NCBI GenBank assembly: GCA_021201665.1
Contig: JAJQEO010000033.1
Coordinates: forward strand, 1 to 64,000
Origin: Lachnospiraceae bacterium
GTDB lineage: Bacteria > Bacillota > Clostridia > Lachnospirales > Lachnospiraceae
Direction of reading: 5' to 3'
DNA: 64,000 bases
This document shows positions 35,737 through 55,815 of the stretch, piece after piece; the first letter of the stretch is position 1; each line of letters begins with the position of its first letter. The notes below the pieces were generated by a model. The model was not told where the DNA came from, ran no database searches, and was given only the letters and a program-made list of their open reading frames with translations. The position numbers were made by a program, and so were the translations under genes.

Positions 35737-37122
35737 TTGGGCGACAGTGATACGATTGCCGCGATTTCGACGGCTTTAGGCGGATCCGGCATAGCGATTG
35801 TCCGAATCAGCGGAAGCGATGCGATCCGGGTAGGGGATCTGGTTTTTGTTTCTGCCGGAGGCAGCAAAAGGCTGTCAGATCAACAAACTCATACGATTCA
35901 CTATGGTTATATAAAGGATGGAGACAAGACTGTTGACGAGGTGCTGGTATCTTTGATGCGTGCCCCCCGCAGCTTTACAACAGAAGATACAGTGGAGATC
36001 AATTGTCATGGCGGAGTGTATGCAACCAGAAGAGTACTGGATACGGTTTTAAAAAATGGCGCTCGTCTGGCAGAACCCGGAGAATTCACGAAAAGAGCCT
36101 TTTTAAATGGAAGAATTGATCTTTCTCAGGCAGAATCTGTGATTGATGTGATACAGGCAAAGAACGAGTACGCTCTGCAAAATTCTCTTGAGCAGCTGTG
36201 CGGAGCTCTTGGCAGGGAGGTTAATGCTTTGAGAGAGCGGATTCTTTATCAGACTGCCTTTATTGAATCCGCGCTGGATGATCCTGAGCACTATAGCCTG
36301 GAAGGATATCCCGGAAAGCTTCGGCTTGAGACCCTGGATTTGCTGCAGTCAGTCAATCGTTTGATCGCTACCTCTGATAATGGACGGCTGATGAAAGAAG
36401 GCATCCAAACCGTGATTCTCGGAAAACCGAACGCCGGGAAGTCTTCTCTGCTGAATGTGCTTGCCCGGGAGGAGCGTGCCATCGTGACAGATATCGCGGG
36501 AACCACCAGAGATACGCTTGAAGAGACTATTTCTCTCGGAGGAATTACATTACAGCTGGTAGATACCGCCGGCATCCGCAGTACGGATGATACGATTGAA
36601 AAAATCGGTGTCAGCAAGGCGCAGGATAAGGCTGGCATGGCAGATCTGATTCTTTATGTAGTCGATTCTACCGTCGCGCTGGATGAAAATGATGATAAAA
36701 TTCTTTCCTTATTAAAAGATAAGAAGGTTATCGTTCTTTTAAATAAATCTGATATGGAGCCTATGGTATCCTTGGATCAGGTCAGAGCGTTTGTCTGCGA
36801 CCGGTACCCGGTAATAGAAATCTCCGCGAAGGAGGAGACAGGGCTGGATTTACTTACAAACACCTTGCAGGAGCTTTTTTATCAGGGAAATCTTTCCTTT
36901 AATGATGAAATCTATATTACCAGTGCAAGAATAAAGTCAGAGTTAATAAACGCAAATAATAGTCTTAAAAAAGTGCTGGAAAGTATTTCTATGGGGCTTT
37001 CGGAGGACTTCTTCTCCATAGATCTGATGGATGCTTATGCCGCCCTTGGGCGGATTATAGGCAAAGAGGTTGGGGAGGATCTGGTAAACGAAATTTTCGG
37101 AAGATTTTGTATGGGGAAATGA
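35737..37122 (+). CDS. mnmE: tRNA U34 modification GTPase MnmE
   Basis: 461 residues from a TTG with a perfect AAGGAGG eight bases upstream. This start gives the normal family length and N-terminus DTIAAISTALGGSGIAIVRISG. The formyl-THF-binding N-domain is followed by a helical domain with an inserted GTPase: GKPNAGKSSLLN (G1), GTTRD (G2), DTAG (G3), NKSD (G4). The C-terminus FCMGK keeps the essential cysteine. Works with MnmG to add the carboxymethylaminomethyl group to tRNA wobble uridine. The helical region reads SALDDPEHYS where relatives have an Asp/Glu-rich ALDFPEE-like segment. Confidence 0.96.
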   Translation: MGDSDTIAAISTALGGSGIAIVRISGSDAIRVGDLVFVSAGGSKRLSDQQTHTIHYGYIKDGDKTVDEVLVSLMRAPRSFTTEDTVEINCHGGVYATRRVLDTVLKNGARLAEPGEFTKRAFLNGRIDLSQAESVIDVIQAKNEYALQNSLEQLCGALGREVNALRERILYQTAFIESALDDPEHYSLEGYPGKLRLETLDLLQSVNRLIATSDNGRLMKEGIQTVILGKPNAGKSSLLNVLAREERAIVTDIAGTTRDTLEETISLGGITLQLVDTAGIRSTDDTIEKIGVSKAQDKAGMADLILYVVDSTVALDENDDKILSLLKDKKVIVLLNKSDMEPMVSLDQVRAFVCDRYPVIEISAKEETGLDLLTNTLQELFYQGNLSFNDEIYITSARIKSELINANNSLKKVLESISMGLSEDFFSIDLMDAYAALGRIIGKEVGEDLVNEIFGRFCMGK

Positions 37123-37200
37123 AATGTATGCCAGGTAGCCGTGCCTGCACTTGCACGGATATTTAATTTGAATGACATGTTACATGTGAGGTTTCATAAA

Positions 37201-39078
37201 ATGAGTCAGGTGGAAGAGTTTGTAGATGTAGTGGTAGTGGGTGCCGGACATGCCGGATGTGAGGCTGCTCTGGCCTGTGCGCGCCTGGGGATGGACACCG
37301 TTATTTTTACTGTCAGTGTTGACAGCATTGCTCTGATGCCCTGTAATCCTAATATCGGCGGCACTTCAAAGGGACATCTGGTCCGCGAGGTGGACGCGCT
37401 TGGCGGGGAGATGGGAAAAAATATTGATAAGACCTTTATCCAGTCCCGGATGCTGAATCAGTCGAAGGGTCCTGCTGTCCATTCCCTGCGGGCGCAGGCG
37501 GATAAGTCAGACTATAGCAGAAGCATGCGGCAGGTTCTGGAGCAGACGGAGCATCTGCGGATCAGACAGCTGGAGGTGACTGATCTTCTGGTGGAAAATC
37601 ACTGCCTTGTGGGCGTAAAGACTTATTCAGGCTCCATTTATCACTGCAAAGCTGCCATTTTATGCGCCGGCACTTATTCCAAGGCCAGGTGTATTTATGG
37701 TGATGTGAGTATGTATACAGGTCCAAATGGTCTCGCGGCGGCTAATCATCTCACGGATTCCATGCGTTCCCTGGGTATCGAGCTGCGGCGTTTTAAGACG
37801 GGCACTCCGGCTCGCATCGCTGGCTATTCGATTGATTATTCGCGGATGGAGGAGCAAAAGGGAGATGAAAAAATCGTTCCTTTTTCCTTTACAACAGATC
37901 CGGAAAGTATACAGAAGGATCAGGTTTCCTGCTATCTGACCTATACAAATGAGAAAACGCATGAAATTATCCGAAAAAATATCGACCGTTCGCCGCTTTT
38001 TTCCGGTATGATAGAAGGCACCGGCCCGAGATATTGTCCTTCAATCGAAGACAAAGTGGTTAAGTTTCCGGATAAAAGCCGACATCAGGTATTCATAGAG
38101 CCTGAAGGTATTCACACAAACGAAATGTATATATCCGGTATGTCAAGCTCCCTGCCGGAGGATGTTCAGATCGCCATGTATCGATCTGTTCCAGGCCTGG
38201 AGCATGCACAGATTGTGAAGAATGCTTACGCGATTGAATATGACTGTATTGATGCGAGATCCCTGAAGCTTTCACTGGAATTCCGGGATATCGAAGGACT
38301 TTATTCTGCGGGACAGTTCAACGGCAGTTCCGGTTATGAAGAAGCGGCCGCGCAGGGTCTGATCGCTGGAATTAACGCAGCGCGTAAAATTCAGGGCAAG
38401 GAACCTTTGATATTAGATCGCTCCCAGGCTTATATCGGCGTCCTGATCGATGATCTTGTCACCAAGGAGAATATTGAGCCATACCGTATGATGACCTCAC
38501 GGGCGGAATATCGTCTCCTGCTTCGGCAGGATAACGCAGATCTGCGGCTTACAGAGATCGGATATGAAATCGGTCTGATTTCCGAGGAACGCTATCGTAA
38601 GCTTCTTAAGAAAAAACAGCAGATTTCTGAGGAGATCGAACGTGTTGAGAATACCTACGTCAGTGATCAGGATTCAGTTCAGCAGCTACTGAGTGAGCAT
38701 GGAAGCACCGCACTTCGTTCTTCAGCATCTTTAGGAGAGTTGATCCGCAGACCTGAGCTTTCTTATGGTGAGATTGCCGCGATCGACCCGGACCGTCCCT
38801 CCCTGCCGGAGGACGTGCAGGATCAGGTAAATATTTCTATAAAATATAAGGGATACCTGGATCGGCAGATGAAGCAGGTAGAGCAATTCAAAAAGCTTGA
38901 GACAAAGCGGATTCCAGAATCCGTAAATTATGAAGAAATCTCTGGTCTTCGGCTGGAAGCCAGGCAGAAGCTCTCCAGATATCGTCCCGCGTCAATCGGA
39001 CAGGCATCCCGGATTGCCGGAGTCTCCCCGGCAGATATTTCGGTGCTTCTTGTGTATTTAAAGCATAAAAACGGATAG
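37201..39078 (+). CDS. mnmG: tRNA U34 carboxymethylaminomethyl synthase MnmG
   Basis: 625-residue FAD protein, partner of MnmE. The N-terminal FAD motif is [16 protein letters not shown]. Other conserved runs are [22 protein letters not shown], the cysteine region [20 protein letters not shown] and [16 protein letters not shown]. The helical C-terminal domain needed for MnmE binding is complete. The ATG at 37201 has GAGG nine bases upstream. 78 bases after mnmE. Confidence 0.97.
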
Positions 39079-39095
39079 ACGCGGCAGAAATAATG

Positions 39096-39138
39096 AAAAG
39101 TTATCCACATTTATGGGGATGAATTGTGGATAACTTTT
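39096..39138 (+). terminator. Terminator whose arms are perfect DnaA boxes
   Basis: AAAAGTTATCCACA (39096-39109) and TGTGGATAACTTTT (39125-39138) form a perfect 14-bp stem with a 15-base loop, followed by more T. Each arm contains an exact DnaA box (TTATCCACA and its complement). Placed 18 bases after mnmG, it should terminate transcription. It also presents two DnaA sites 8.3 kb from dnaA. Confidence 0.75.
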
Positions 39139-39261
39139 TTATACACACGGCCGCGAAAGGAATTATACCAGCTAAAGCAAGAAGCGGCCGACACAGGCGG
39201 ATAGGTGAGAGAACTCTCTTTATCAGGTTCAATTGATACTGGTATTTAGATCGGAGTTATT

Positions 39262-40131
39262 ATGAATCAAAAGATCAATTATGAAATGAATCAGACATAC
39301 AATCAGAAAAGCAGACAAGAAGTAAAACGTGAAATAAATCTTGGGATCAAACAAGATATCAAACAAGATATCAAACAAGATATCAATCGAGACCCAGCTT
39401 TGCACGACATAAAATCTGCTTTTAATACCATCGGCATCTCGCTTATCGATGATCAGGCGAACCAGTTTTTTCAATATTACCAGCTTCTTACAGAAGCGAA
39501 TAAGGTAATGAATCTAACTGCGATTACAGACTTTGACGAGGTTGTGCTGAAGCATTTTCTTGACAGTGTTCTTATCTATTGTACATTTGAAAAGTATGGC
39601 TTTAAAGACACTGGAGACGAAGGCTTTAAAAGCATAATTGATGTGGGTACGGGTGCAGGCTTTCCGGGGCTCCCATTGAAAATTGTCTTTCCAGATCTTC
39701 ACATGGTATTACTGGATTCTCTCAATAAGCGTGTGGGATTTCTGAATGATGTGATCGACAAACTGCAGCTTGAAGATATTATTGCAGTTCATTTTCGCGC
39801 TGAGGATGCGGGCAGAAATGCCGAATACCGTGATAGATTTGACCTGTGTGTTTCCAGGGCTGTGGCAAATCTTTCTGTGCTCTCGGAATACTGCCTTCCT
39901 TTTGTAAGGCCGGGCGGTTTATTTGTTTCCTATAAATCTTCGGATATTGATCAGGAATGCGAGGATGCGAAAAAAGCTATTCATATGCTTGGCGGAAAAA
40001 TCGAGCATGTAGATAAGTGCTTTCTTCCCGGAACAGATATTGAACGTTCTTTTGTCTTTATTCGTAAAGAAAAAGAGACTCCGCCAAAATACCCGCGCAA
40101 AGCTGGTACTCCGTCCAGGAGTCCCTTGTAG
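39262..40131 (+). CDS. rsmG: 16S rRNA (guanine527-N7)-methyltransferase RsmG
   Basis: Uses SAM to methylate G527 of 16S rRNA. The SAM site is SIIDVGTGAGFPGLPLKI, followed by VLLDSLNKRVGFL and SRAVANLSVLSEY. At 289 residues it is longer than the usual 240 because of an N-terminal extension of about 45 residues that includes IKQD repeated three times, encoded by 12-bp tandem repeats (39346-39393). The ATG at 39262 has GGAG five bases upstream, so the extension is probably translated. Loss of this gene is known to give low-level streptomycin resistance in other bacteria. Confidence 0.95.
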   Translation: MNQKINYEMNQTYNQKSRQEVKREINLGIKQDIKQDIKQDINRDPALHDIKSAFNTIGISLIDDQANQFFQYYQLLTEANKVMNLTAITDFDEVVLKHFLDSVLIYCTFEKYGFKDTGDEGFKSIIDVGTGAGFPGLPLKIVFPDLHMVLLDSLNKRVGFLNDVIDKLQLEDIIAVHFRAEDAGRNAEYRDRFDLCVSRAVANLSVLSEYCLPFVRPGGLFVSYKSSDIDQECEDAKKAIHMLGGKIEHVDKCFLPGTDIERSFVFIRKEKETPPKYPRKAGTPSRSPL

Positions 40132-40229
40132 GAAGGATATATTAGATTTGCTATTTTTTAATTTCAGCTTATACTTTTAATTTTAGTTTATATTTTTAAT
40201 TGCTGCTATTTATTTCTTAAATTGTTAAG

Positions 40230-40276
40230 CCTAACCCGGACAAAAACCGGAACCGAAATTTTGCCATCTTGCGCAA
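40230..40276 (+). repeat. Dispersed repeat family C, copy 2
   Basis: CCTAACCCGGAC, AAAAACCGGAACCGAA and TTTTGCCATCTTGCGCAA correspond to the inverted copy at 35648..35692. It lies in the AT-rich gap between rsmG and the convergent hydrolase. Confidence 0.65.
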
Positions 40277-40310
40277 AAAAATTGTTTTTAAGTGCCTAAT
40301 TTAAAAATCA

Positions 40311-41243
40311 TTAAATCAATTTGCTGTTTATAATATTTATTACTTTTTCAGGAGCTTCCATATGTGGAAGCTTTTTAGTTGCCTTGATTGTTTTTATATC
40401 CAGATTCTTATACAGGTTTTGATATTCCATGGTGATTTCTTTCGCTTCAGGTTCTTCTTCTCCTAAAATTAACACTTTTCTGGCTGAAGGCCTGTTATTC
40501 GTATTTGTGATGTTGACGTTCAGGTAATGAGCCTTCAGGCATGCGTATAAGTGTTTTCCATTTCCTTTATCCTGATGCGCCGCCAGATAAGCTGCCTTTA
40601 CTGTTGCATCCGTTAATTGAAATGGATTGAAAAAACATTTTTCTGACAGATAATATTCCGCATTTGCTTTTCTGGTTGCGAGATAGTAGCACGCCTTGCT
40701 GACAATCGGAAGATTAAAAAATTGAAGCACAAGCTTTGCGTATTTATCCGGATTTTTTCTCAGTGATCGCAGAGAAGGAGGATTGATCATAAAGATAGAA
40801 TCCATTAAATTTTCATCCATAGCATCTGCTTTCAGTACAAACGTGCTGGACATACCGGAAACCACTACGATGGGCGGTTCTTTGATGACCTTCTTTATAA
40901 AATCAGAAACTAACTGTACATACAGATAATTCGTATATGTCAGTGATGGTTTTTCAGATCTTCCGCATCCTAACAGATCTATGGTGTAGACCTTATATTT
41001 ATCTGAGAGATTTGCGGTAAGCTTTATCCATTCATTTTCTGAAGAAAATATATTCAGATCATGAATCAGTAAAATCGGTTTTCCCTCACCAGATACCTTG
41101 TAAAATATTCTTCCGTGTTCCCAGTTAAAATACCTTCCATTTGTCTTTGTAGTATTGGCTTCAATGGTGGAATCAATATAATTATTGACCCCGAAAAGTA
41201 CGGCCAGAGTTGAAATAGTAAGTTTTAATTTTTTATTAGCCAT
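40311..41243 (-). CDS. Membrane-anchored alpha/beta hydrolase
   Basis: 310-residue protein with an N-terminal hydrophobic segment (about 6-20), then an alpha/beta-hydrolase fold: PILLIHDLNIFSSE (oxyanion strand), TIDLLGCGRSEKP, nucleophile region VVSGMSSTF with Ser in GMSST, a lid-like helical part, and the C-terminal KKLPHMEAPEKV supplying His. The usual GxSxG motif has Thr in place of the last Gly. Substrate unknown. It is AT-richer than its neighbours and runs against the local plus-strand direction, between rsmG and the parS locus. Confidence 0.75.
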   Translation of the reverse strand: MANKKLKLTISTLAVLFGVNNYIDSTIEANTTKTNGRYFNWEHGRIFYKVSGEGKPILLIHDLNIFSSENEWIKLTANLSDKYKVYTIDLLGCGRSEKPSLTYTNYLYVQLVSDFIKKVIKEPPIVVVSGMSSTFVLKADAMDENLMDSIFMINPPSLRSLRKNPDKYAKLVLQFFNLPIVSKACYYLATRKANAEYYLSEKCFFNPFQLTDATVKAAYLAAHQDKGNGKHLYACLKAHYLNVNITNTNNRPSARKVLILGEEEPEAKEITMEYQNLYKNLDIKTIKATKKLPHMEAPEKVINIINSKLI

Positions 41244-41405
41244 TTGCTAAAAAACCTTCTTTCTTTTATGAAATATTTTATTATGCATATACATATATTT
41301 CTGATATTTCTCAAAAATAAAATTTTCTTTTGTTGCTTAATTGATTATACATCTTTTTTCCTATTATGTCACTTCTATTTTTATCTTTAATATTTCAGCC
41401 TTAAA

Positions 41406-41421
41406 TGTTTCACGTGAAACA
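41406..41421. promoter_or_regulatory. parS: parS site 1
   Basis: TGTTTCACGTGAAACA, a perfect 16-bp palindrome identical to the consensus ParB/Spo0J binding site. It lies just upstream of the promoter of the coiled-coil gene and 1.5 kb before soj. Nothing else is seen in the 41244..41606 gap apart from the promoter. Confidence 0.95.
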
Positions 41422-41434
41422 TTTTCTGTATTCT

Positions 41435-41463
41435 TTGACTTTTTGATACTGATGAGTTATGAT
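41435..41463 (+). promoter_or_regulatory. Promoter of the parS-flanked gene
   Basis: TTGACT (41435-41440), 17-base spacer, TATGAT (41458-41463). It starts 13 bases after parS site 1, so ParB spreading from parS could affect it. Confidence 0.6.
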
Positions 41464-41606
41464 AAAAAACAGCTATTATATGATTCGAAAGATTAAAAGA
41501 TATAATACTAAGTAATAACAGCTTCTGACGGAAGCCAGTATCATCTCTCTGGTGGTATTTGCGTGAATTGCAAGCTTCAAAATATTTTCAAAAGGATAAT
41601 TGCAAA

Positions 41607-42623
41607 ATGATTAAAGAATTTATTATAAAAATGCGTGATGAAAATGAACAAAAGATAAGCTCGCTTGAATGTGAGATGAGTGAACTTGTCCGGGATTTAT
41701 CCTTAGCAGAACAGCTTTTGGAAAAAATGCTTCGCGAAAAGAAATCTGATACATATATTTTTTCTCCGCGAACGACGGACTTCCAGATTGATGAAAAAAT
41801 CAGAGCTAAACAGACGGAAATCAGAGAACTGAACCAGAAAATTGATTATGTTCGCCATATGATGGAGGAAAGGCTTAAAAATCGTGATGAATTTAATAAT
41901 CTTTTAAATGAAATTGAGACAAGCGATCATGAAAAATCTTCGCAGGACGATCAAAAAGCAGAATCAAATGCAATCTCAGTAGTAAAAAGCGGTTTAACAT
42001 CTGTATTGTCAAATAATCAGAGTAGAGAATATAATTCATGTGTAACACAGGAGAAATCTTCAATCGTAACAAAAGAAATGCAGAAAAATCCCTCAACTGC
42101 TGATATAAAAATACCGGAGAAGTTTTCATCTGATGAAGGAAAAAAGCTGGAAATTCCTTCAACTGCCGAAATAGAAATACAGAAAAATAGTCCATCTGCG
42201 GAGAGCCAAATACAGAGGAATCTTCCATCTTCGGATGGGGAAAAAGAGGAGAATCTTCCATCAGCTGAAAGCAAAAAAGAGGAGAATCTTCCATCAGCTG
42301 AAAGCGAAAAACAAGAGAATCTTCCTTCTACTGGACCGCATAATCAATCCGTTTCTGGCATTAAAAAAGGTGGAGAATCAGTATTAGAAGCTGGAGAACA
42401 TAAAGCAGAATCCTCAAATTTACAACAATCAGGGGAAGCTATAAGAAACGCTGAAATTAATAAAGAGAAGCTGCTTTCTTTTTTGCAGGCAATCTATAAA
42501 GATACAGAAACCTGTCTTGCTTTAATCAATGGTAATAAGAACCGATGTAAAACTGAACTCAGAAAAATGATGAAATCTATCAGTGAATACAAAAAAATGA
42601 TCGAAACAGACGATGTTTCATGA
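41607..42623 (+). CDS. Coiled-coil protein of unknown function between two parS sites
   Basis: 338 residues from the ATG at 41607 (AAAGGA about 10 bases upstream). Residues 1-100 are a charged heptad-like coiled coil (EQKISSLECEMSELVRDL, KIRAKQTEIRELNQKIDYV). A long Ser/Glu/Pro-rich disordered part follows, with imperfect repeats of the ENLPSAES type (about 200-240). The last 60 residues form a helical segment with KEKLLSFLQAIYKDTETCLAL. There is no signal, membrane helix or enzyme motif. Its position in the parABS locus suggests a link to segregation or origin organisation, but this is position-based inference only. Confidence 0.75.
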   Translation: MIKEFIIKMRDENEQKISSLECEMSELVRDLSLAEQLLEKMLREKKSDTYIFSPRTTDFQIDEKIRAKQTEIRELNQKIDYVRHMMEERLKNRDEFNNLLNEIETSDHEKSSQDDQKAESNAISVVKSGLTSVLSNNQSREYNSCVTQEKSSIVTKEMQKNPSTADIKIPEKFSSDEGKKLEIPSTAEIEIQKNSPSAESQIQRNLPSSDGEKEENLPSAESKKEENLPSAESEKQENLPSTGPHNQSVSGIKKGGESVLEAGEHKAESSNLQQSGEAIRNAEINKEKLLSFLQAIYKDTETCLALINGNKNRCKTELRKMMKSISEYKKMIETDDVS

Positions 42624-42648
42624 ATGCTTTTTGTGAAAAATGGAGGAA

Positions 42649-42664
42649 TGTTTCACGTGAAACA
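42649..42664. promoter_or_regulatory. parS: parS site 2
   Basis: A second perfect TGTTTCACGTGAAACA, 25 bases after the stop of the coiled-coil gene and about 300 before soj. The remaining 42665..42961 gap has isolated -10-like TATAAT and TATACT hexamers but no convincing -35. Confidence 0.95.
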
Positions 42665-42961
42665 TTTTTTGTGGAATAAATAAGAAAAAGGTGCTATACT
42701 CAAAAAGCGATCGAAATAAGCTGTCTGCAATTTCATTGATTTCAGTTGTAAGGCAGATTACATGAGTTGAGAGATAAAGCAGCCTGAGATTTTTGTATAA
42801 TGGCTTATATGATAAAGAAAAGCAGGAATACAAACAGTAGTATAAAAGGTGTATATGATAATCAAATAAAAAGAAAAACACACGGATAAACCTGTAAAAA
42901 CAAGACAGAAATAGAAAATAAGCAGTAGATCAGATTGTGTGTAAAATAAGGGGGAAAATGA

Positions 42962-43738
42962 ATGGGGAGAACGATCGTGGTTGCCAACCAGAAGGGTGGA
43001 GTTGGAAAAACCACAACTACTATCAATCTGTCCGCTGCTCTTGCAGAGACGGGCAGAAAGGTGCTGGTAGTAGATATGGATCCACAGGGAAATACTACCA
43101 GCGGGCTGGGCGTGGATAAAGAAAATGTAGAGAAAACAGTGTACGAGTTATTATTGGGAGAAATCACAGCAGAGGAATGTCTGCTGGAAAATATTCTGGA
43201 TAATTTGTCGCTGCTTCCCTCCAATATTAATCTTTCGGGAGCGGAGATAGAACTGATTGGTATCGAGGAGAAGGAGTATCTTTTAAAAAAGGCATTGGAA
43301 TCTATCAAGGAGCGCTATGAATTTATATTAATCGACTGCCCGCCGTCTCTGAATATGCTGACAATTAACTCTATGTGTGCAGGGAACACAGTTCTGGTAC
43401 CAATTCAGTGTGAGTATTATGCGCTGGAGGGCTTAAGTCAGCTGATTCATACGATTGAACTGGTAAAGGAAAGGCTGAACCCGCAGATAGAGATTGAAGG
43501 TGTCGTCTTTACCATGTATGATGCAAGGACAAATCTGTCGCTGCAGGTCGTGGAAAATGTAAAAGAAAATCTAAACCAGAAAATTTATAAAAGCATCATT
43601 CCGAGAAATGTCAGACTTGCGGAGGCGCCAAGCTATGGAATGCCGGTTACAAAATATGATACCAAATCAACAGGAGCGGAATCCTATCGGTTGCTGGCAG
43701 AGGAAGTGATACATAGGGGAGATGAAGAATGGCAGTAA
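42962..43738 (+). CDS. soj: Chromosome partitioning ATPase ParA/Soj
   Basis: 258-residue deviant-Walker ATPase: NQKGGVGKTTTTINL near the N-terminus, VVDMDPQGNTTSG, and DCPPSLNMLT. It binds DNA nonspecifically and interacts with ParB for origin segregation and with DnaA control in B. subtilis. GGGGG lies seven bases before the ATG. It overlaps parB by 10 bases. Confidence 0.96.
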   Translation: MGRTIVVANQKGGVGKTTTTINLSAALAETGRKVLVVDMDPQGNTTSGLGVDKENVEKTVYELLLGEITAEECLLENILDNLSLLPSNINLSGAEIELIGIEEKEYLLKKALESIKERYEFILIDCPPSLNMLTINSMCAGNTVLVPIQCEYYALEGLSQLIHTIELVKERLNPQIEIEGVVFTMYDARTNLSLQVVENVKENLNQKIYKSIIPRNVRLAEAPSYGMPVTKYDTKSTGAESYRLLAEEVIHRGDEEWQ

Positions 43739-44619
43739 AGAAAACAGGATTGGGAAAGGGGCTGGACTCCCTGATCCCGAAACAGGTCGGAAAAGAGCCT
43801 GCCGCGTCCACACAAAAGCCGGTTATCAAAAATGAAGAATTAAAAATTAAGGTTACTGAGATCGAGCCTAACAGAGATCAGCCCAGAAAGCAATTTGATG
43901 AGGATTCTTTGGCAGAGCTGGCGGACTCGATCCGCCAGTTCGGAGTGATACAGCCGCTGATCGTCCAGAAAATAAACGGCCGCTATGAGATCATTGCCGG
44001 TGAGCGCAGATGGCGTGCGGCAAAGCTGGCCGGATTGAAGGAAGTGCCTGTTATCGTCCGCGAGTTTTCAAAGCAGGAATCTGTGGAAATATCTCTGATT
44101 GAGAATATTCAGCGTGAAAACCTGAATCCTATAGAGGAGGCAATCGCTTATAAACGCCTGCTAACAGAATTTGAGCTGAAACAGGATGAGGTGGCTGAGC
44201 GCGTGTCAAAAAGCAGGACTGCCATCACAAACTCTCTGCGCCTGTTAAAGCTTGATGACCGTGTGCAGCAGATGGTAGTCGATGAGATGATAACTACAGG
44301 ACATGCCAGAGCTTTGCTCGCAATCAGTGATAAAGAATCACAGTATAAGTACGCCATGAAGGTTTTTGATGAAAAAATGAGCGTACGCGAGACCGAGCGG
44401 CTAGTGAAAAACCTGACAGAAAAGAAAGAGAAAAAAGAAACGGAGGATCCGGCGCGCCAGTATATTTATCAGGATCTGGAAGATAAAATGAAGACACTGC
44501 TCGGTACAAAGGTCTCCATCCAGCATAAGAAAAACAACAAAGGGAAAATAGTAATCGATTATTATTCCAATGAGGAGCTGGAGAGACTGATGGATTTATT
44601 CCGGTCGATACACGGTTAG
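43729..44619 (+). CDS. parB: Chromosome partitioning protein ParB/Spo0J
   Basis: 296 residues. The N-terminal CTPase/ParB domain has IQPLIVQKINGRYEIIAGERRWRAAKLAG and the NIQRENLNPIEEAIAY box. The HTH KQDEVAERVSKSRTAITNSLRLL recognises parS. The C-terminal dimerisation zone follows a Lys/Glu-rich linker. Two parS sites lie within 2.4 kb upstream. Translation is coupled to soj. Confidence 0.96.
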   Translation: MAVKKTGLGKGLDSLIPKQVGKEPAASTQKPVIKNEELKIKVTEIEPNRDQPRKQFDEDSLAELADSIRQFGVIQPLIVQKINGRYEIIAGERRWRAAKLAGLKEVPVIVREFSKQESVEISLIENIQRENLNPIEEAIAYKRLLTEFELKQDEVAERVSKSRTAITNSLRLLKLDDRVQQMVVDEMITTGHARALLAISDKESQYKYAMKVFDEKMSVRETERLVKNLTEKKEKKETEDPARQYIYQDLEDKMKTLLGTKVSIQHKKNNKGKIVIDYYSNEELERLMDLFRSIHG

Positions 44620-44655
44620 GCCTGAAGAAGGAGGAGCATATAAGGGGAGAACATT

Positions 44656-45180
44656 ATGGAAAGTAATATTTTAAATTCAATTGGGATTGACCCTGGGATA
44701 CTGGTCATTGCCATGATGGGAATTTTGATACTGGTACTGCTCTACATGGTACATGTATCCATGAAAATGACAAGATTTATGAAGAGATACCGCATTTTTA
44801 TGAAGGGAAAAGATGCGCAGTCACTGGAAAAAGCATTTTCGCAGAAATTTCTGGAGGTTGATTCACTTTCAGAGATGAGCAGAGTCAATAATGATGAGAT
44901 TCATCGTATCAAGGATATCCAGAAGCGTTCCGCGAACAAAATTGGCATTGTCAAATATGACGCGTTTCCCGATGTAGGCGGAAGACTCAGCTTTGCACTG
45001 GCCATGCTCGATGAGAGTGATACTGGATTTGTATTGAATACAATTCACGGAAGAGACGGATGCTATACTTATATTAAGGAAATAGTTAAAGGAGAATCCT
45101 ATATCGTCCTCGGCCCGGAGGAAAAGGAAGCTCTGCGCCAGGCGGTAACCTATTTTAGCGACATGAATGGAGGACAGTAA
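44656..45180 (+). CDS. DUF4446 membrane protein
   Basis: 174 residues with one N-terminal transmembrane helix (about 15-35, ILVIAMMGILILVLLYMV). The cytoplasmic part has a basic segment KMTRFMKRYRIFMKGKD and the DUF4446 core VKYDAFPDVGGRLSFALAMLD. The family commonly follows parB in clostridia and has no known function. GGGGAG precedes the ATG. Its end is adjacent to serS. Confidence 0.88.
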   Translation: MESNILNSIGIDPGILVIAMMGILILVLLYMVHVSMKMTRFMKRYRIFMKGKDAQSLEKAFSQKFLEVDSLSEMSRVNNDEIHRIKDIQKRSANKIGIVKYDAFPDVGGRLSFALAMLDESDTGFVLNTIHGRDGCYTYIKEIVKGESYIVLGPEEKEALRQAVTYFSDMNGGQ

Positions 45181-45181
45181 G

Positions 45182-46477
45182 ATGTTAGACATCAAATTTG
45201 TAAGAGAAAATCCGGAAACAGTAAAACAGAATATCCGCAATAAATTTCAGGATGAAAAGCTTCCGCTGGTAGATGAGGTACTCAGCCTGGATCAGAAAAA
45301 CCGTGATATTAAGAAGGAAGTAGAGGCGCTTCGCGCCGCACGCAACAAAATTTCCAAAGAAATCGGAAAGCTGATGGCGCAGGGGAAAAAGGAAGAGGCG
45401 GAAGAAGTCAAACGTCAGGTTACTGCAAACGCGCAGCGCATTGAGGAATTAAGTGACGAAGAGAAAAAGGTAGAGGCACGCATCCGTGAGATTATGCTGA
45501 TCATTCCGAATATCATTGATTCGTCCGTACCGATCGGCAAGGATGACAGTGAGAACGTAGAGCTTGAACGTTTTGGAGAGCCGGTCGTACCGGACTTTGA
45601 GATTCCTTACCACACAGAAATCATGGAAAAGCTGAATGGCATCGACATGGACGCAGCCGGAAGAGTTGCCGGAAACGGATTTTATTATCTGATGGGAGAT
45701 ATCGCAAGACTGCATTCCGCCGTACTTTCCTACGCACGCGATTTTATGATCGACCGCGGCTTCACCTATTGCATTCCGCCCTATATGATCCGCAGCAATG
45801 TCGTGACAGGCGTTATGAGCTTTGCCGAGATGGACGCGATGATGTATAAAATTGAAGGCGAGGATCTTTTCCTGATCGGAACGAGCGAACACTCCATGAT
45901 TGGTAAATTTATTGATACTATTATCCCGGAGGAAGAGCTGCCGAAAACACTGACCAGCTATTCTCCCTGCTTCCGCAAGGAAAAAGGCGCGCATGGCATC
46001 GAGGAGAGGGGCGTTTACCGCATCCACCAGTTCGAAAAACAGGAAATGATCGTTGTCTGCAAACCGGAAGACAGTATGATGTGGTACGACCGCCTGTGGA
46101 AAAATACAGTAGATTACTTCCGCACACTGGACATTCCTGTTCGCACACTGGAGTGCTGCTCCGGTGACCTGGCCGACCTGAAAGTAAAATCCGTGGACGT
46201 CGAGGCATGGTCTCCGCGCCAGAAGAAATATTTCGAAGTCGGCAGCTGCTCGAACCTCGGCGACGCGCAGGCAAGGCGCCTGAAAATCCGCGTCAGCGGG
46301 AAAAACGGCAAATACTTGGCCCATACTTTAAACAACACCTGCGTGGCACCGCCGAGAATGCTGATCGCATTCCTCGAGAACAACCTGAACGCGGATGGTT
46401 CCGTGCGCATACCGGAAGCACTGCGCCCCTATATGGGAGGCAAGGATCTGATTCCGGTGCCAGTTAATACAAAATAA
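45182..46477 (+). CDS. serS: Seryl-tRNA synthetase
   Basis: Charges tRNA-Ser, using ATP. The 431-residue class II enzyme has the N-terminal antiparallel coiled-coil arm (about 30-105), motif 2 around FRKEKGAHGIEERGVYRIHQF, and motif 3 near TCVAPPRMLIAFLENN. GGAGG lies eight bases before the ATG. The catalytic domain differs from the B. subtilis type (for example SCSNLGDAQARRLKIRV). It may be the divergent form found in some clostridia, sometimes alongside a second SerRS. No T-box leader is present. Only one base separates it from the DUF4446 gene. Confidence 0.95.
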   Translation: MLDIKFVRENPETVKQNIRNKFQDEKLPLVDEVLSLDQKNRDIKKEVEALRAARNKISKEIGKLMAQGKKEEAEEVKRQVTANAQRIEELSDEEKKVEARIREIMLIIPNIIDSSVPIGKDDSENVELERFGEPVVPDFEIPYHTEIMEKLNGIDMDAAGRVAGNGFYYLMGDIARLHSAVLSYARDFMIDRGFTYCIPPYMIRSNVVTGVMSFAEMDAMMYKIEGEDLFLIGTSEHSMIGKFIDTIIPEEELPKTLTSYSPCFRKEKGAHGIEERGVYRIHQFEKQEMIVVCKPEDSMMWYDRLWKNTVDYFRTLDIPVRTLECCSGDLADLKVKSVDVEAWSPRQKKYFEVGSCSNLGDAQARRLKIRVSGKNGKYLAHTLNNTCVAPPRMLIAFLENNLNADGSVRIPEALRPYMGGKDLIPVPVNTK

Positions 46478-46485
46478 AGAACGAT

Positions 46486-46591
46486 AAATACAACTTATGC
46501 TTTAAGGCTAAATAACGAGCCTCAAATACAACTTATGCCTTAAGGTAAAATAACGAATCTCAAATACAACTAATGTTTTAATGCAAAAAAA
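46486..46591. repeat. Tandem 38-bp repeats after serS
   Basis: Units start at 46486, 46524 and 46562, each beginning AAATACAACTTATGC or a close variant. The first two are full (38 bases) and the third decays into an A-run. There are no unique spacers, so this is not a CRISPR array. Confidence 0.8.
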
Positions 46592-46669
46592 AATAAATGT
46601 AGCTTATATTTAAAGCAAAACAAGGAAAAGCAATGCATTCAAATTCTAAAGCAAAACAGAGGAGAACAA

Positions 46670-47545
46670 ATGCATTCATATTTAAGAGCCATCGGTTTTG
46701 GTGCAATAAGCAAAGAGGCGGAAGCCGAAAAAATTCTGGACGAAACCTTCTACGATTTCACCAAACGTGAAATTGCCAAGGGCGAAAACAATACGGCATT
46801 CATACAGATGTGCAAAGAATATGCGCCGAATATGGGAATCATGATCTACGGTAACCTGGATGAAAATGGTTTCCACAGACAGCACTACTTCCCATATTTA
46901 ACCGGTGCGCAGGTCTCTACAAAAGATGAACTGACCATAGAAAAACGTGTAGACGGTATCTCCTACGCCGGCGTCTGCGAAGATGGCCGCGTAGGCGTTT
47001 CCATTATCTTTTATGTGCAGAATATCGCCCAATACCAGCGCGAAACCTTTTTAGATTCCGTATTCCGAAAAAGCATGTCAGCCACCCTCTCCGGCCTTTC
47101 TACCGGGGGAATGGTCCTTTTGCCGGTAAAAAAAGACATGGATCAGATCAGCCGCCAGCAAAAAAGCACGGCAAAGCGCAACCAGCTCCTTTCCGCCGCG
47201 AAAAATGGAGATGAAGAAGCGATCGAAAGCCTGACCATCGAAGACATGGATCTGTATTCCATGATCTCCCGCAGAATGTATACAGAGGATGTTTATTCCA
47301 TCATCGACACCTTTTTCATGCCTTACGGCATCGAATGTGATCAGTACCAGATCATGGGCAATATCCGCCAGTGCGAGAGCGTCGTCAACACGGCCACGGA
47401 CGAAAAGGTTTACCAGCTGGGCCTCGAGTGCAACGATCTCTGCTTTGACATCTGCATCAATGAAAAAGACCTTCTGGGCGAGCCGGAGGTCGGACGGCGA
47501 TTCAAAGGCAACATCTGGCTGCAGGGGCACGTCAACTTTGAGTGA
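46670..47545 (+). CDS. DUF3881 family protein
   Basis: 291-residue soluble protein starting MHSYLRAIGFGAI, which is characteristic of DUF3881, a family largely confined to Lachnospiraceae and relatives. It has no signal or membrane segment, and the function is unknown. AGAGGAG is five bases before the ATG. Followed 18 bases later by the helicase gene. Confidence 0.85.
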   Translation: MHSYLRAIGFGAISKEAEAEKILDETFYDFTKREIAKGENNTAFIQMCKEYAPNMGIMIYGNLDENGFHRQHYFPYLTGAQVSTKDELTIEKRVDGISYAGVCEDGRVGVSIIFYVQNIAQYQRETFLDSVFRKSMSATLSGLSTGGMVLLPVKKDMDQISRQQKSTAKRNQLLSAAKNGDEEAIESLTIEDMDLYSMISRRMYTEDVYSIIDTFFMPYGIECDQYQIMGNIRQCESVVNTATDEKVYQLGLECNDLCFDICINEKDLLGEPEVGRRFKGNIWLQGHVNFE

Positions 47546-47563
47546 GATAATGGGGAAATATTC

Positions 47564-50500
47564 ATGGGTTTTCTGAATTTTTTGCGCGGCTGCACAGATC
47601 ATATAAGGAAAAAACTCAGAAATATTGAAAATATGCCGGTTTCCGGGGACAAAAAATCTTTGGGAGCCGGTATGCCGCAGCATTTGTCGGAAAAACAGAC
47701 GGAAACCGATACGCCGCAGCATTTGCCGGAAAAACCGACGGAGTCCGATATTTCACAGAACTTGCCAGAAAAATCTAACAACGAAAATATAAAAAAGCTC
47801 CGGGAATTCCAGGAGAAAATGGAAACCCTTTTTCAGGAACAACATTATATTTCCAGAAAAGAATACGCGCCGGTGACGGAGGCGTTCCGGACGGTCGCGG
47901 AATCCTTTGATATTATGAAGGAAAATGGTGTGCTGGAAGCTTTTGCTGACGCAAATGAAATTTCCGCGGATGAAATTATTTCTGCAATGAATTTATATCA
48001 CCATACGGCAGAGTACATTGACCGGCATAACGATGACTACGTGAATGCCGCTTTGATACAGGAGAAGGCATACCTGGATCAGATTCTGACAGAGGTAGAT
48101 CCGGAAATTACACTGGATGACGATCAGAGAAGAGTGGTTCTGACCGATGAGGACTATTGCCTTGTAATTGCCGGGGCTGGGGCAGGCAAAACGACGACCA
48201 TCGCCGCGAAGGTGAAATATCTGACAGACAAGCAGAAGATAGACCCTTCCCAGATTCTTATCGTATCCTTTACAAATAAAGCGGTAGATGAGTTAAAAGA
48301 AAAGATCCAGAAGAATTTAGGGATCGAGTGTCCGATCTCGACATTTCATTCAGCCGGGAATGCGATTATTCATAAACACACTCCGGAGGAGAAGCTGAGG
48401 GTCGTGGACAATTCACGACTCTATTTTCTTTTAAGAGATTATTTTCGCGGATCCATCCTCCAGAATGAAAATGTGGTAAATAAGCTGATTTTATTTTTTG
48501 CGTCTTATTTTGACGCTCCTTATGAAGGAGAAGATCTGAACGGTTTTTTTAATCATATCGCCAGGGCAAATTATTCCACTATGCGCAGTGACCTGGAGGA
48601 TTTCAGGCGCGAGGTCACTGACGCGAGGACAAAACGATCCGTAACGATACAGAATGAGACTCTCCGCTCCCACCAGGAAGTGGAAATAGCTAATTTCCTC
48701 TATCTGAACAGGATTGAATATGAATATGAGCCGCTTTATCCATATCATCTTGCAGGAACATACAAGCCTTATACCCCCGATTTTATTATTTCACAGGACG
48801 GAAGAAGTGCTTACCTGGAGCATTTTGGCATCTCTGAGGATGGAGAAAATGACAGATACAGCCAGGAGGAGCTGATACTCTACAAAAAAGCAGTCAACGA
48901 CAAGGTCCGTCTGCACAGACAGCATGGATCGACATTAATCTATACGTTTTCCAATTACCGGGATAAGCGTCCGCTTCTGGAACATTTAAAAGAAGAACTG
49001 GAAAAAAATGGTTTCGAACTGCGCCCAAGATCCAATGAGGAGGTCATGAAGCTCCTGGTCGCGGGTGAAGAAAACCGCTATATCCGCAGGCTTTTAAATC
49101 TGATCTGCCGTTTTATTTCTAATTTTAAGGTGAACGGATATACGGAGGAAGATTTTGACCGGATGTATCATTCCACTCAGAATGTGAGGAGCCGGCTTTT
49201 CCTGGAAATCTGCAACGACTGCTATCTGGAATATGAGCGCTGGCTTAAAGAAAATAAGGCGGTTGATTTTGAAGATATGATCAACGAGTCAGCCAGAATT
49301 CTCCGGGATGTAAAGGAGATGAAGCAGAAGCTTGATTTTAAATACATCATCGTAGATGAATACCAGGATATTTCCAGACAGCGGTTTGACCTGACAAAAG
49401 CACTCTCCGAGGTCACGGATGCAAAAATTATGGCGGTCGGGGATGACTGGCAGTCCATTTATGCCTTCAGCGGATCGGATATCACTTTGTTTACGAAATT
49501 TCAGGAAAAAATGGGCTACGCAAAAATGCTGAAGATCGTCAGGACCTACCGCAATTCTCAGGAAGTCATCGACATCGCCGGAAACTTTATACAAAAAAAT
49601 ACAAATCAGATCCAGAAGCAGCTGATTTCGCCGAAGCACATTGAAGACCCGGTGCTGATTTTTACGTATGACAGCACAGCTAAGGGCAAAAACGGCGACC
49701 GCAGAAGCGGTGAAAATTACGCGGTTGCCCATGCGGTGCAGACAGCACTGGAGCACCTGATGGAGTATAAGAAAAAAGAAGGTAAAAAACCAGGAACCAT
49801 CCTGCTGCTCGGCCGGTTTGGCTTTGACGGCGACCGGCTGGAACGCTCCGGTCTTTTTGAGTACAGCAGCAGAAGCGGAAAACTGAAAAGTGTGAAATAT
49901 CCGAAGCTGGATATTACATTCATGACCGCTCATTCTTCCAAAGGACTCGGATATGATGATGTGATTGTAGTAAACGGAAAAAATGAGACCTACGGCTTTC
50001 CATCAAAGATCGAGGACGATCCGGTTCTGGCCTTTGTGATCAGGGGGGACCGTTCTATAGATTACGCAGAAGAACGGCGGCTGTTTTATGTGGCGATGAC
50101 CAGGACAAAAAACCGGGTATTTTTCATCGCTCCGGAACAGAATCCTTCGGAATTCTTGCTGGAATTAAAAAAAGACTACAAAAACGTCGTTCTGAAGGGC
50201 AGCTGGAACGAGGAGAAGGTCATCCAGACGGCGAAAAAAGCCTGTCCGTTGTGCGGCTATCCCATGCAGTTAAAATACAAAAATGCCTATGGCCTGAGAC
50301 TGTATATTTGCACAAACGAACCGGAAGTATGCGGATTCATGACGAATAACATTCACGGCGGCAAGCTTTCCATCCGCAAATGCGACCGCTGTCAGGACGG
50401 ATACCTGGTCGTAAAAGCCAACAGAAGCGGCGGCTATTTTCTTGGCTGTACCAATTATAACGCAAAAGGGACCGGCTGCGGAAGGACAATCAGTAAGGAC

Positions 50501-54917: not shown

Positions 54918-55815
54918 CATCTTCTCTACAGAAGAAAGCCGCGAAGCTGCAACACGCGAACAGATTCAGAAAATTCCCATATCAGAGCTGCATCCGTTTG
55001 AGGGGCATCCGTTCCGCGTGGTGGACGATGAAGCCATGACACGGACGATGGAGAGCATTTCGCAGTTTGGTGTGATCTCGCCGCTTCTCGCCCGCCCTGA
55101 TCCGGACGGTGGCTATGAGATTATTTCCGGGCATCGGAGACATCATGCGGCACAGCTTGTCGGGCTGGAAACTCTGCCTGTTATTGTGCGGGAGATGGAT
55201 GATGATGAAGCGATTATCGCCATGGTGGATTCGAATCTGCAAAGAGAAACGATTCTACCGAGTGAGCGGGCGTGGGCTTACAAGATGAAGCTGGATGCCA
55301 TAAAACATCAGGGAGCAAGGACGGATTTAACTTCTGTGCAAGTTGCACAGAAGTTGCCTGGAAAAACATCAAGGCAGCTTTTGGGCGAGCAGGTAGGACA
55401 GAGTCCTGATCAAATTCGCAGATATATCCGTCTGACCGAACTGATTCCCGAACTGCTTGACATGGTAGATGAAAAGAAAATTGCTCTTAATCCTGCCGTG
55501 GAGCTGTCTTATCTGAGCAAAGATGAGCAGACACAGTTTCTGGAAGCGATGGACTATGCACAGGCAACGCCGTCTCTCTCGCAGGCACAGCGGCTGAAAA
55601 AGCAGAGTCAGGAGGGCGGATGCTCCATGGATTTTATGCGCAGCACGATGAACGAGGAGAAGAAAGGCGACCCGGACCGTGTGGTTTTTAAGGCGGAGGA
55701 CCTTCGGAAGTATTTTCCGAGATCATACACGCCGCAGCAGATGGAAAAAACCATTATTCGTCTTTTGGAACAGTGGCAGCGGAAGAAACAAAAACAGCAG
55801 GATCAGATGCTTTAG
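54874..55815 (+). CDS. Element-encoded ParB-like protein
   Basis: 313 residues. The ParB N-domain shows PLLARPDPDGGYEIISGHRRHHAAQLVG and SNLQRETILPSERAWAY. An HTH-like part follows (LLGEQVGQSPDQIRRYIRL), and the C-terminal 60 residues are Lys/Gln-rich. Its ATG has AGGAGG nine bases upstream. No consensus chromosomal parS occurs in the element, so it must use another site. Distinct from the chromosomal parB. Confidence 0.88.
   Translation: MPKKGANIALSSYDDIFSTEESREAATREQIQKIPISELHPFEGHPFRVVDDEAMTRTMESISQFGVISPLLARPDPDGGYEIISGHRRHHAAQLVGLETLPVIVREMDDDEAIIAMVDSNLQRETILPSERAWAYKMKLDAIKHQGARTDLTSVQVAQKLPGKTSRQLLGEQVGQSPDQIRRYIRLTELIPELLDMVDEKKIALNPAVELSYLSKDEQTQFLEAMDYAQATPSLSQAQRLKKQSQEGGCSMDFMRSTMNEEKKGDPDRVVFKAEDLRKYFPRSYTPQQMEKTIIRLLEQWQRKKQKQQDQML

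Follow-up and report, generated by a model that had tools for sequence, protein, structure and literature searches.

Introduction

In Bacillus, noc occupies the interval between rsmG and soj. DivL of Caulobacter is a kinase that has lost its phospho-acceptor histidine and kept a cell-cycle role. Noc is described as a ParB-like protein of the Firmicutes that acts in nucleoid occlusion, and ParB is described as recruiting SMC at parS, both in the available part of one article (PMC7333895). In B. subtilis, the DegS sensor interacts with SMC-ScpA-ScpB, which inhibits the kinase, according to the accessible portions of two articles (PMC3033389, PMC2245950); a third, also accessible in part, names Dervyn and others (2004) as the source of the link between DegS and condensin (PMC3963450). 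Within the literature available to us in part, no earlier genomic counterpart of this binding was found, and nothing relevant was found on parS-linked degSU, parS-linked kinases, or parS in Lachnospiraceae. Here, we analyzed a 64,000-nucleotide stretch of DNA from a Lachnospiraceae bacterium (hereafter the window, whose numbering is used throughout) in which one gene stands between two parS sites.

Results

Exact copies of the 16-bp parS palindrome TGTTTCACGTGAAACA were found in the window at 41406..41421 and 42649..42664, the second lying 25 bp past the stop codon of the only gene between them (41607..42623, + strand, 338 aa from its ATG). Soj (ParA; 42962..43738, + strand, PF13614) and parB (43729..44619, + strand, PF02195, PF17762, and PF23552) follow and were both confirmed by Pfam; the locus thus has the parS 16-mer next to parA-parB that marks a ParABS centromere. 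An earlier note, made from the window alone, had reported both the flanking of a single gene by identical palindromes and its position ahead of soj-parB, and both observations held. Three parS-like sites with 2 or fewer mismatches were present in the window, compared to 0.02 expected from 100 shuffles. ParB loaded at the two sites would be expected to spread across the gene. On the other side of the gene is an alpha/beta hydrolase gene (abh; 40311..41243, - strand, PF00561), found at the same place in relatives; in many loci of the order it keeps this place, even beside intact degS-degU. Part of another ParB-family gene was noted at 54952-55302; over about 116 residues, it is 40% identical to the chromosomal ParB.

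In the family as a whole, 287 parS sites gave the consensus AATGTTTCACGTGAAACATT, a 20-bp palindrome with A at -1 in 92% of sites and T at +1 in 93%. The downstream parS of the window and its T-run have a predicted fold of -10.4 kcal/mol. As a general rule, a role of parS as an intrinsic terminator was not supported, because in a test that pooled all 287 sites, those right behind a stop codon among them, the flanks mainly extended the palindrome to 20 bp and the excess of T had faded by about +5. Starts of parS 0-5 bases past the stop codon of the upstream gene were seen at L107 (2246), L110 (2318), L114 (1030), L123 (1127), L131 (3427), L138 (1158), L175 (1790), and L242 (640); the genes ending there differ in kind, being a kinase-less form, a regulator, or acetyltransferase-like. 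Two regular arrays of seven parS sites each (1 or fewer mismatches) were also found upstream of soj in other genera, one with spacing of about 122 bp (L111, 3861-4608) and one with several spacings of 36 or 72 bp (L059, 1085-1585).

The 338-aa product had no match above cut-off in Pfam or NCBIfam, neither scan matched it to a ParB or HTH domain, and Pfam gave no match to HATPase_c. An identity as YabA (NCBIfam E of 0.73) was dismissed as a chance coiled-coil match. An Rfam scan of 40000-43200 was also without a match. The AlphaFold2 model of the protein (mean pLDDT of 70, over 90 in most of the helices) has helices at residues 2-47, 59-133, 286-306, and 311-335, with 134-285 unstructured and of low confidence, in agreement with the earlier note, which had expected a coiled coil at the N-terminus, disorder in the middle, and helices at the C-terminus. 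The first two helices form a hairpin (41610..42005, + strand) predicted with pLDDT above 90 over most of residues 1-40 and 61-110, and with low confidence from about residue 110 to the end of its second helix. At its tip is the loop IFSPR (residues 51-55; 41757..41771, + strand), invariant in 25/25 aligned proteins of the genus. A repeat-rich, fast-changing linker (residues 134-285; 42006..42461, + strand) leads to a second hairpin at the C-terminus (residues 286-335; 42462..42611, + strand). In the alignment of 25 proteins, the first 110 and last 50 residues were conserved and the linker was very variable in length. Foldseek comparison of the model with the PDB returned 730 matches at E of 10 or less and none at E of 0.001 or less; the best 50 of the 730 were unrelated, mostly coiled-coil proteins, with no histidine kinase among them.

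A profile of the genus family gave weak matches in 28 of 298 family genomes, two of them of the genus. Several of these matches were C-terminal and in long proteins, and the three such proteins that were scanned were sensor histidine kinases with HisKA_3 and HATPase_c. Profile-profile comparison (hhalign) aligned the N-terminal part of the genus family to full kinases with a probability of 96.6% (E of 5.5e-10), rising to 97.7% (E of 2e-12) with larger sets; for the other kinase-less forms, the probability was 99.0% (E of 2.4e-18). Profiles of the N-terminal (sensor) part and of the DHp part were then made from 26 kinases outside the genus and scored against 276 controls (230 shuffled and 46 reversed sequences). 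The sensor profile placed 23/25 genus proteins above the best control and the DHp profile placed 19/25 above it, leaving 2 and 6 proteins, respectively, not above controls; because the genus profile had led to some of these kinases in the first place, the two sets are not fully independent. The corresponding counts for the 21 other kinase-less proteins were 21 and 11. In the genus proteins, the two matches fell at opposite ends, in the order that they have in the kinases. Among 232 ORFs of the window, the bracketed gene ranked first with both (20.4 and 17.1 bits; the next ORFs had 3.1 and 3.6). Against the relationship, a full-kinase profile (A3) searched over the genome of the window did not recover the gene at E of 0.001 or less, in a search less sensitive than profile-profile comparison. 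When sequences of solved structures were searched with a kinase profile, DesK and VraS came first.

Residues 293-328 of the window protein aligned to DHp columns 22-57, in which the phospho-histidine is column 15, with 17.2 bits compared to 12.2 or less in the 276 controls; by this profile, the protein contains the helix pair that follows the histidine in HisKA_3. Pfam HisKA_3 had no hit in the window protein itself and a weak one, below cut-off, in one kinase-less relative (E of 0.062). No histidine was present at the phospho column in the 24 genus proteins that aligned (1 of 25 did not). Nineteen of the 24 alignments start past this column, and in the others it is occupied by N (twice), D, or L, or is a gap. 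The histidine is retained in one (L107) of the 17 kinase-less proteins of other genera that aligned. For the full kinase L225, the model (mean pLDDT of 77) has helices 2-46, 57-164, and 168-196 ahead of the ATPase; the phospho-histidine His143, invariant among aligned kinases, is inside helix 57-164, and a loop occurs at the place equivalent to IFSPR. From the equivalence of helices between the two models, the C-terminal hairpin of the window protein would correspond to what follows the histidine in the kinase: the remaining 21 residues of that helix, the turn, and part of the second DHp helix, within which the protein ends.

These comparisons indicate that the phospho-histidine segment, the ATPase, and the regulator have been lost from this slot in the clade that contains the genus, and that the sensor hairpin, IFSPR loop included, has been kept along with the end of the DHp. 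Since homology is colinear and the locus is syntenic with that of a parS-linked DegS-like kinase, we consider it very probable that the gene descends from a DegS-type two-component kinase and has lost the kinase part, and refer to it as the relic. It had been called an uncharacterized coiled-coil gene; the coiled coil stands, and the gene is very probably a truncated DegS-type sensor kinase.

Searching the order with the alignment of kinase-less proteins gave matches in longer proteins of other families. Five of these kinases were scanned and contained the DegS sensor domain PF05384 (E of 1.5e-37 to 5.3e-43) along with HisKA_3 and HATPase_c. PF05384 was above cut-off in 33/147 genomes of the order and 48/196 genomes of the class, and was not found in the genome of the window. 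In the stretches listed with 1.5-kb flanks, a hydrolase gene or rsmG adjoins degS in 17/30 from the order compared to 0/30 from the class, and parS is within reach of degS in 6/30 compared to 0/30. Twenty longer stretches from the order, consisting of the 17 picked for hydrolase or rsmG beside degS and 3 others, contained degS, degU, parS, and soj in one piece in 14 cases; of the other 6, two had parS without soj, two reached contig ends, and two, among the 3 others, had degS elsewhere, with regulators 43-44% identical. The layout in these other families is rsmG-abh-degS-degU-parS-soj-parB. Within Lachnospiraceae, the regulators of the corresponding place were 53-66% identical to such DegU proteins in 10/11 loci and 41% in L175. 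A second ParB-like gene (44-49% identity), perhaps noc, was seen in the gap between rsmG and the hydrolase gene in other families of the order (L336, 1404-2015; L343, 1258-1821; L345, 1262-1825; L349, 676-1314).

PF05384 had no hit at E of 1 or less in the window protein and none in the Lachnospiraceae kinases scanned, and hhalign of the Lachnospiraceae sensor hairpin against DegS sensors gave probabilities of 0.5-12. Because the sensor is too diverged to be identified as that of DegS, the names DegS-like, for the kinases, and DegS-type relic, for the gene, rest on locus, kinase core, and regulator. On that basis, comparison shows the gene to descend from a DegS-like cytoplasmic histidine kinase whose operon, a kinase with a NarL/DegU-type regulator, adjoins parS-soj-parB in several of the families that make up the order.

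In the Lachnospiraceae, rsmG was found in 276/298 genomes and about 150 of its places were listed; 100 stretches anchored on rsmG were fetched, and 80 named soj loci were added. The fetched stretches were mostly those with rsmG nearest to that of the window, so the survey is biased in that direction. The slot between rsmG or the hydrolase gene and soj was in one of three states, with a full kinase, usually accompanied by a NarL-type regulator, with a short homologue of the kinase-less kind, or with no such gene. Full systems are exemplified by Anaerocolumna sp. MB42-C2 (L209), Lachnospiraceae bacterium A2 (L225), Anaerosporobacter faecicola (L227), and Petralouisia muris (L253), and the kinase-less state by Roseburia hominis An869 (L242), beside parS. 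Blautia wexlerae (L224), Coprococcus catus (L201), and Eisenbergiella tayi (L214) showed no homologue in their upstream stretches. An opposite truncation, with DHp and ATPase, no sensor hairpin, and a regulator following, was seen at L109 (662-1288), L251 (4232-4879), L254 (3437-4153), and L258 (4272-4928). At L175 (1133-1789), the kinase-less form adjoins a diverged regulator, which perhaps works without phosphorylation.

A tree of RsmG, Soj, and ParB was built for 94 loci (80 family loci with long-enough Soj and ParB, the other 20 being dropped, and 14 of the genus), of which 17 were labeled kinase, 29 kinase-less (14 of the genus), and 48 none found. The kinase label takes in L109, without the sensor part, and L163, with an ATPase below the Pfam cut-off and no HisKA_3 hit; none found means not in the stretch, rearranged loci included. 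The genus falls in a clade of 21 rows (support of 100) that contains 20 kinase-less rows and no full kinase. The kinase-less label required 7 changes, of which well-supported branches forced 5; the tree was made by a quick method without a mixture model, and its counts cannot separate gain from loss. Because regain of a kinase in place is unlikely, we read these as several losses of the kinase, with a remnant kept in the clade that holds the genus.

Inside the genus, the gene was found in 23/47 genomes by a single-protein search, and 30/47, including that of the window, had a strong chromosomal ParB match, with a fragment in one more; many of the assemblies are fragmented. The stretch upstream of parB was examined in 30 of these 31 genomes, leaving aside that of the window. 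It contained the complete gene in 24 and a copy cut by the contig end in two (L026, L039), and in 4 the contig stopped before the gene. Every stretch with both the hydrolase gene and soj had the complete gene (23/23). The order rsmG, hydrolase, gene, soj, parB was constant wherever readable, with the hydrolase on the minus strand except in L046.

Substitutions were compared between the window gene and its nearest relative, with dS near saturation: dN/dS was 0.095/1.70 for the sensor, 0.97/1.77 for the linker, and 0.20/1.70 for the C-terminal hairpin. In nine other pairs, the fraction of replacement sites changed was 0.06-0.37 for the sensor, 0.14-0.36 for the C-terminal hairpin, and 0.41-0.66 for the linker, with silent sites changed at 0.54-1.0, many of them saturated. 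By these rates, both hairpins are under purifying selection.

Discussion

The bracketing itself may say little about the gene. Sites of parS could multiply and move within the centromere region, one copy having landed in this genus on the far side of a gene whose place next to parS has other causes, and we judge this to be evenly balanced between right and wrong; it is also compatible with the identity of the gene as a kinase relic. The number of parS sites does vary among the 47 genus genomes, many of them fragmented assemblies (exactly 2 in 18, 1 in 6, 3-7 in 8, and none in 15), and the available part of one article describes inserted parS as tolerated over a wide region around the origin in other bacteria (PMC7333895). 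Outside the genus, parS is downstream of the gene or its regulator in 33/33 loci (17 kinase, 16 kinase-less), before soj wherever the stretch includes soj (that of L102 ends earlier). A site directly upstream was present in 0/17 kinase loci and in 1/16 kinase-less loci (L153), or in 0/18 and 2/15 if L175 is put with the kinases and the L100 site beyond the hydrolase gene is counted; in both L100 and L162, the upstream parS is beyond that gene, and L163 has an additional parS inside the gene. Bracketing therefore counts as a derived character of the genus.

Against mere movement of parS, the two-sided layout persists in the genus despite large sequence divergence, and the flanking pair are the only parS sites with 1 or fewer mismatches in the 4.71-Mb assembly of the window. 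A parS site lies within 1.2 kb on each side in 20/24 genus copies, or in 19/24 if the upstream site has to fall between the hydrolase and the gene, since that of L046 is beyond the hydrolase. Of the copies that are not bracketed, L023 is on a contig that begins about 175 bp upstream of the gene, L035 and L043 have every parS downstream, and L052 has parS inside the gene and none within 1.2 kb upstream. Whether the gene is always found between parS sites in relatives, as the earlier note had asked, thus has a largely positive answer in the genus and a negative one outside it. The same note would have given up a role for the gene at parS if close relatives lacked the gene and kept the sites. No such gene was found in the stretch for 48/94 tree loci, 45 of which keep parS, so the gene is dispensable for segregation in general; this is the situation of the family, and inside the genus the gene is kept.

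Another reading is that the gene is repressed or tuned by ParB loaded at the two flanking sites, the dose of its product then reporting ParB occupancy or origin copy number. A promoter-like site, TTGACT-17-TATGAT (41435..41463, + strand), does begin 13 bases past the upstream parS, where the earlier note had placed a promoter, and in Pseudomonas aeruginosa ParB represses two genes downstream of two intergenic parS sites (PMC7022226, in the part available). As a promoter, however, the site is not above chance: its score of 10/12 was reached in 8/100 base shuffles of the same stretch, the region holds 7 promoter-like sites compared to 8.5 in shuffles, and the best score per locus averaged 8.61 over the window and 17 relatives (18 loci), no better than 8.38 for shuffled sequence. 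The same part of PMC7022226 states that genes beside parS are unchanged upon loss of Spo0J in B. subtilis. We regard tuning by ParB as improbable.

Lower still is the probability that the relic regulates two-component signaling, through mixed HisKA_3 dimers or by docking to and blocking a response regulator. The kept C-terminal hairpin is part of a dimerization domain, and in one other genus a kinase-less form is followed by a regulator (L175); that regulator, however, is itself the diverged one, with 41% identity in place of 53-66%. No NarL/DegU-type regulator was found among the ORFs adjoining the window gene (36000-48000), and the slot regulator has no close match in the genome, the best being 39% identical over the receiver part only. 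None of the 10 matches of the full-kinase profile (A3, E of 0.001 or less) in the genome starts before profile position 204, and so a kinase that shares the DHp was not seen there, in a search that also missed the bracketed gene itself and is less sensitive, on a single genome, than profile-profile comparison. Mixed dimers with a sister kinase are disfavored by this result.

That the gene is a decaying pseudogene in place by chance is hardly credible, for although the kinase half is absent, the linker of the closest pair changes at about half the rate of silent sites, and the kinase-less state arose through 7 changes on the tree with 5 forced, the frame is open in 24/24 complete copies, IFSPR is invariant in 25/25, both hairpins are under purifying selection, and the gene was kept through a clade of several genera.

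We propose that the relic would be a dimeric, non-catalytic remnant of a sensor that still binds the partner of its ancestor. On the simplest reading, partner binding is what would remain, because the sensor is selected in a protein with no enzyme and no adjoining regulator, encoded at the site to which the partner is recruited. The likeliest partner would be the SMC-ScpA-ScpB condensin, recruited by ParB at parS; ScpA was found in 44/47 genus genomes. The relic would then be produced from the same DNA that ParB loads onto, and its role at the origin would be that of an accessory or limiting component of the ParB-parS/condensin complex, no longer via phosphotransfer. With no significant similarity between its sensor and that of DegS, the transfer of SMC binding from DegS rests on locus, kinase core, and regulator. 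By this analogy, binding of the sensor relic to its partner, most likely SMC-ScpAB, is a tentative suggestion. Descent from a DegS-like kinase taken together with a partner-binding relic at the ParB-parS/condensin complex is the best explanation of the whole that we can offer, and we place it slightly short of an even chance. A gene product that is a segregation partner, as the earlier note had proposed, is possible, with indirect support from the interaction of the DegS sensor with SMC-ScpA-ScpB in B. subtilis. The conserved place of the gene may also be inertia of gene order, as the unrelated hydrolase gene keeps the same place.

More speculatively, and on balance doubtful, degS-degU of the order may sit at the centromere since its sensor directly reads condensin loading or origin segregation, and in the genus, with the signaling half discarded, this sensor may have become a dedicated structural or limiting factor of the ParB-parS-condensin complex, made from parS-bracketed DNA. 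The more interesting finding behind the relic is that degS-degU-type systems are associated with the centromere in several families of the order. Together with a clade that has the sensor only, degS-degU beside parS-soj-parB would make a link between condensin loading and two-component signaling directly testable. The relic is in addition a clear case of a kinase that lacks its enzyme half and has a sensor still under selection.

Among the known systems close to the relic is DegS. Both have a cytoplasmic helical-hairpin sensor followed by DHp helices, the locus of the relic is that of Pfam-recognized degS in other families of the order, and in 10/11 cases the regulator of its full-kinase relatives is 53-66% identical to the DegU found there. 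In contrast to DegS, the relic has no phospho-histidine, ATPase domain, or regulator, its sensor sequence is not recognized by the DegS model (PF05384), and a disordered linker takes the place of the H-box helix. The DesK/VraS-type HisKA_3 kinases (PDB 3gig, 3ehf, and 4gt8) are matched by the full kinases of the slot from the DHp on, or in the ATPase only, whereas the relic keeps only the post-histidine part and no ATPase. DivL, compared by description only, is likewise a degenerate histidine kinase that has lost the phospho-acceptor histidine, but it keeps an ATPase-like domain and is membrane-bound. Noc of Bacillus occupies the same rsmG-soj interval as the relic, but the relic has no ParB or HTH domain match.
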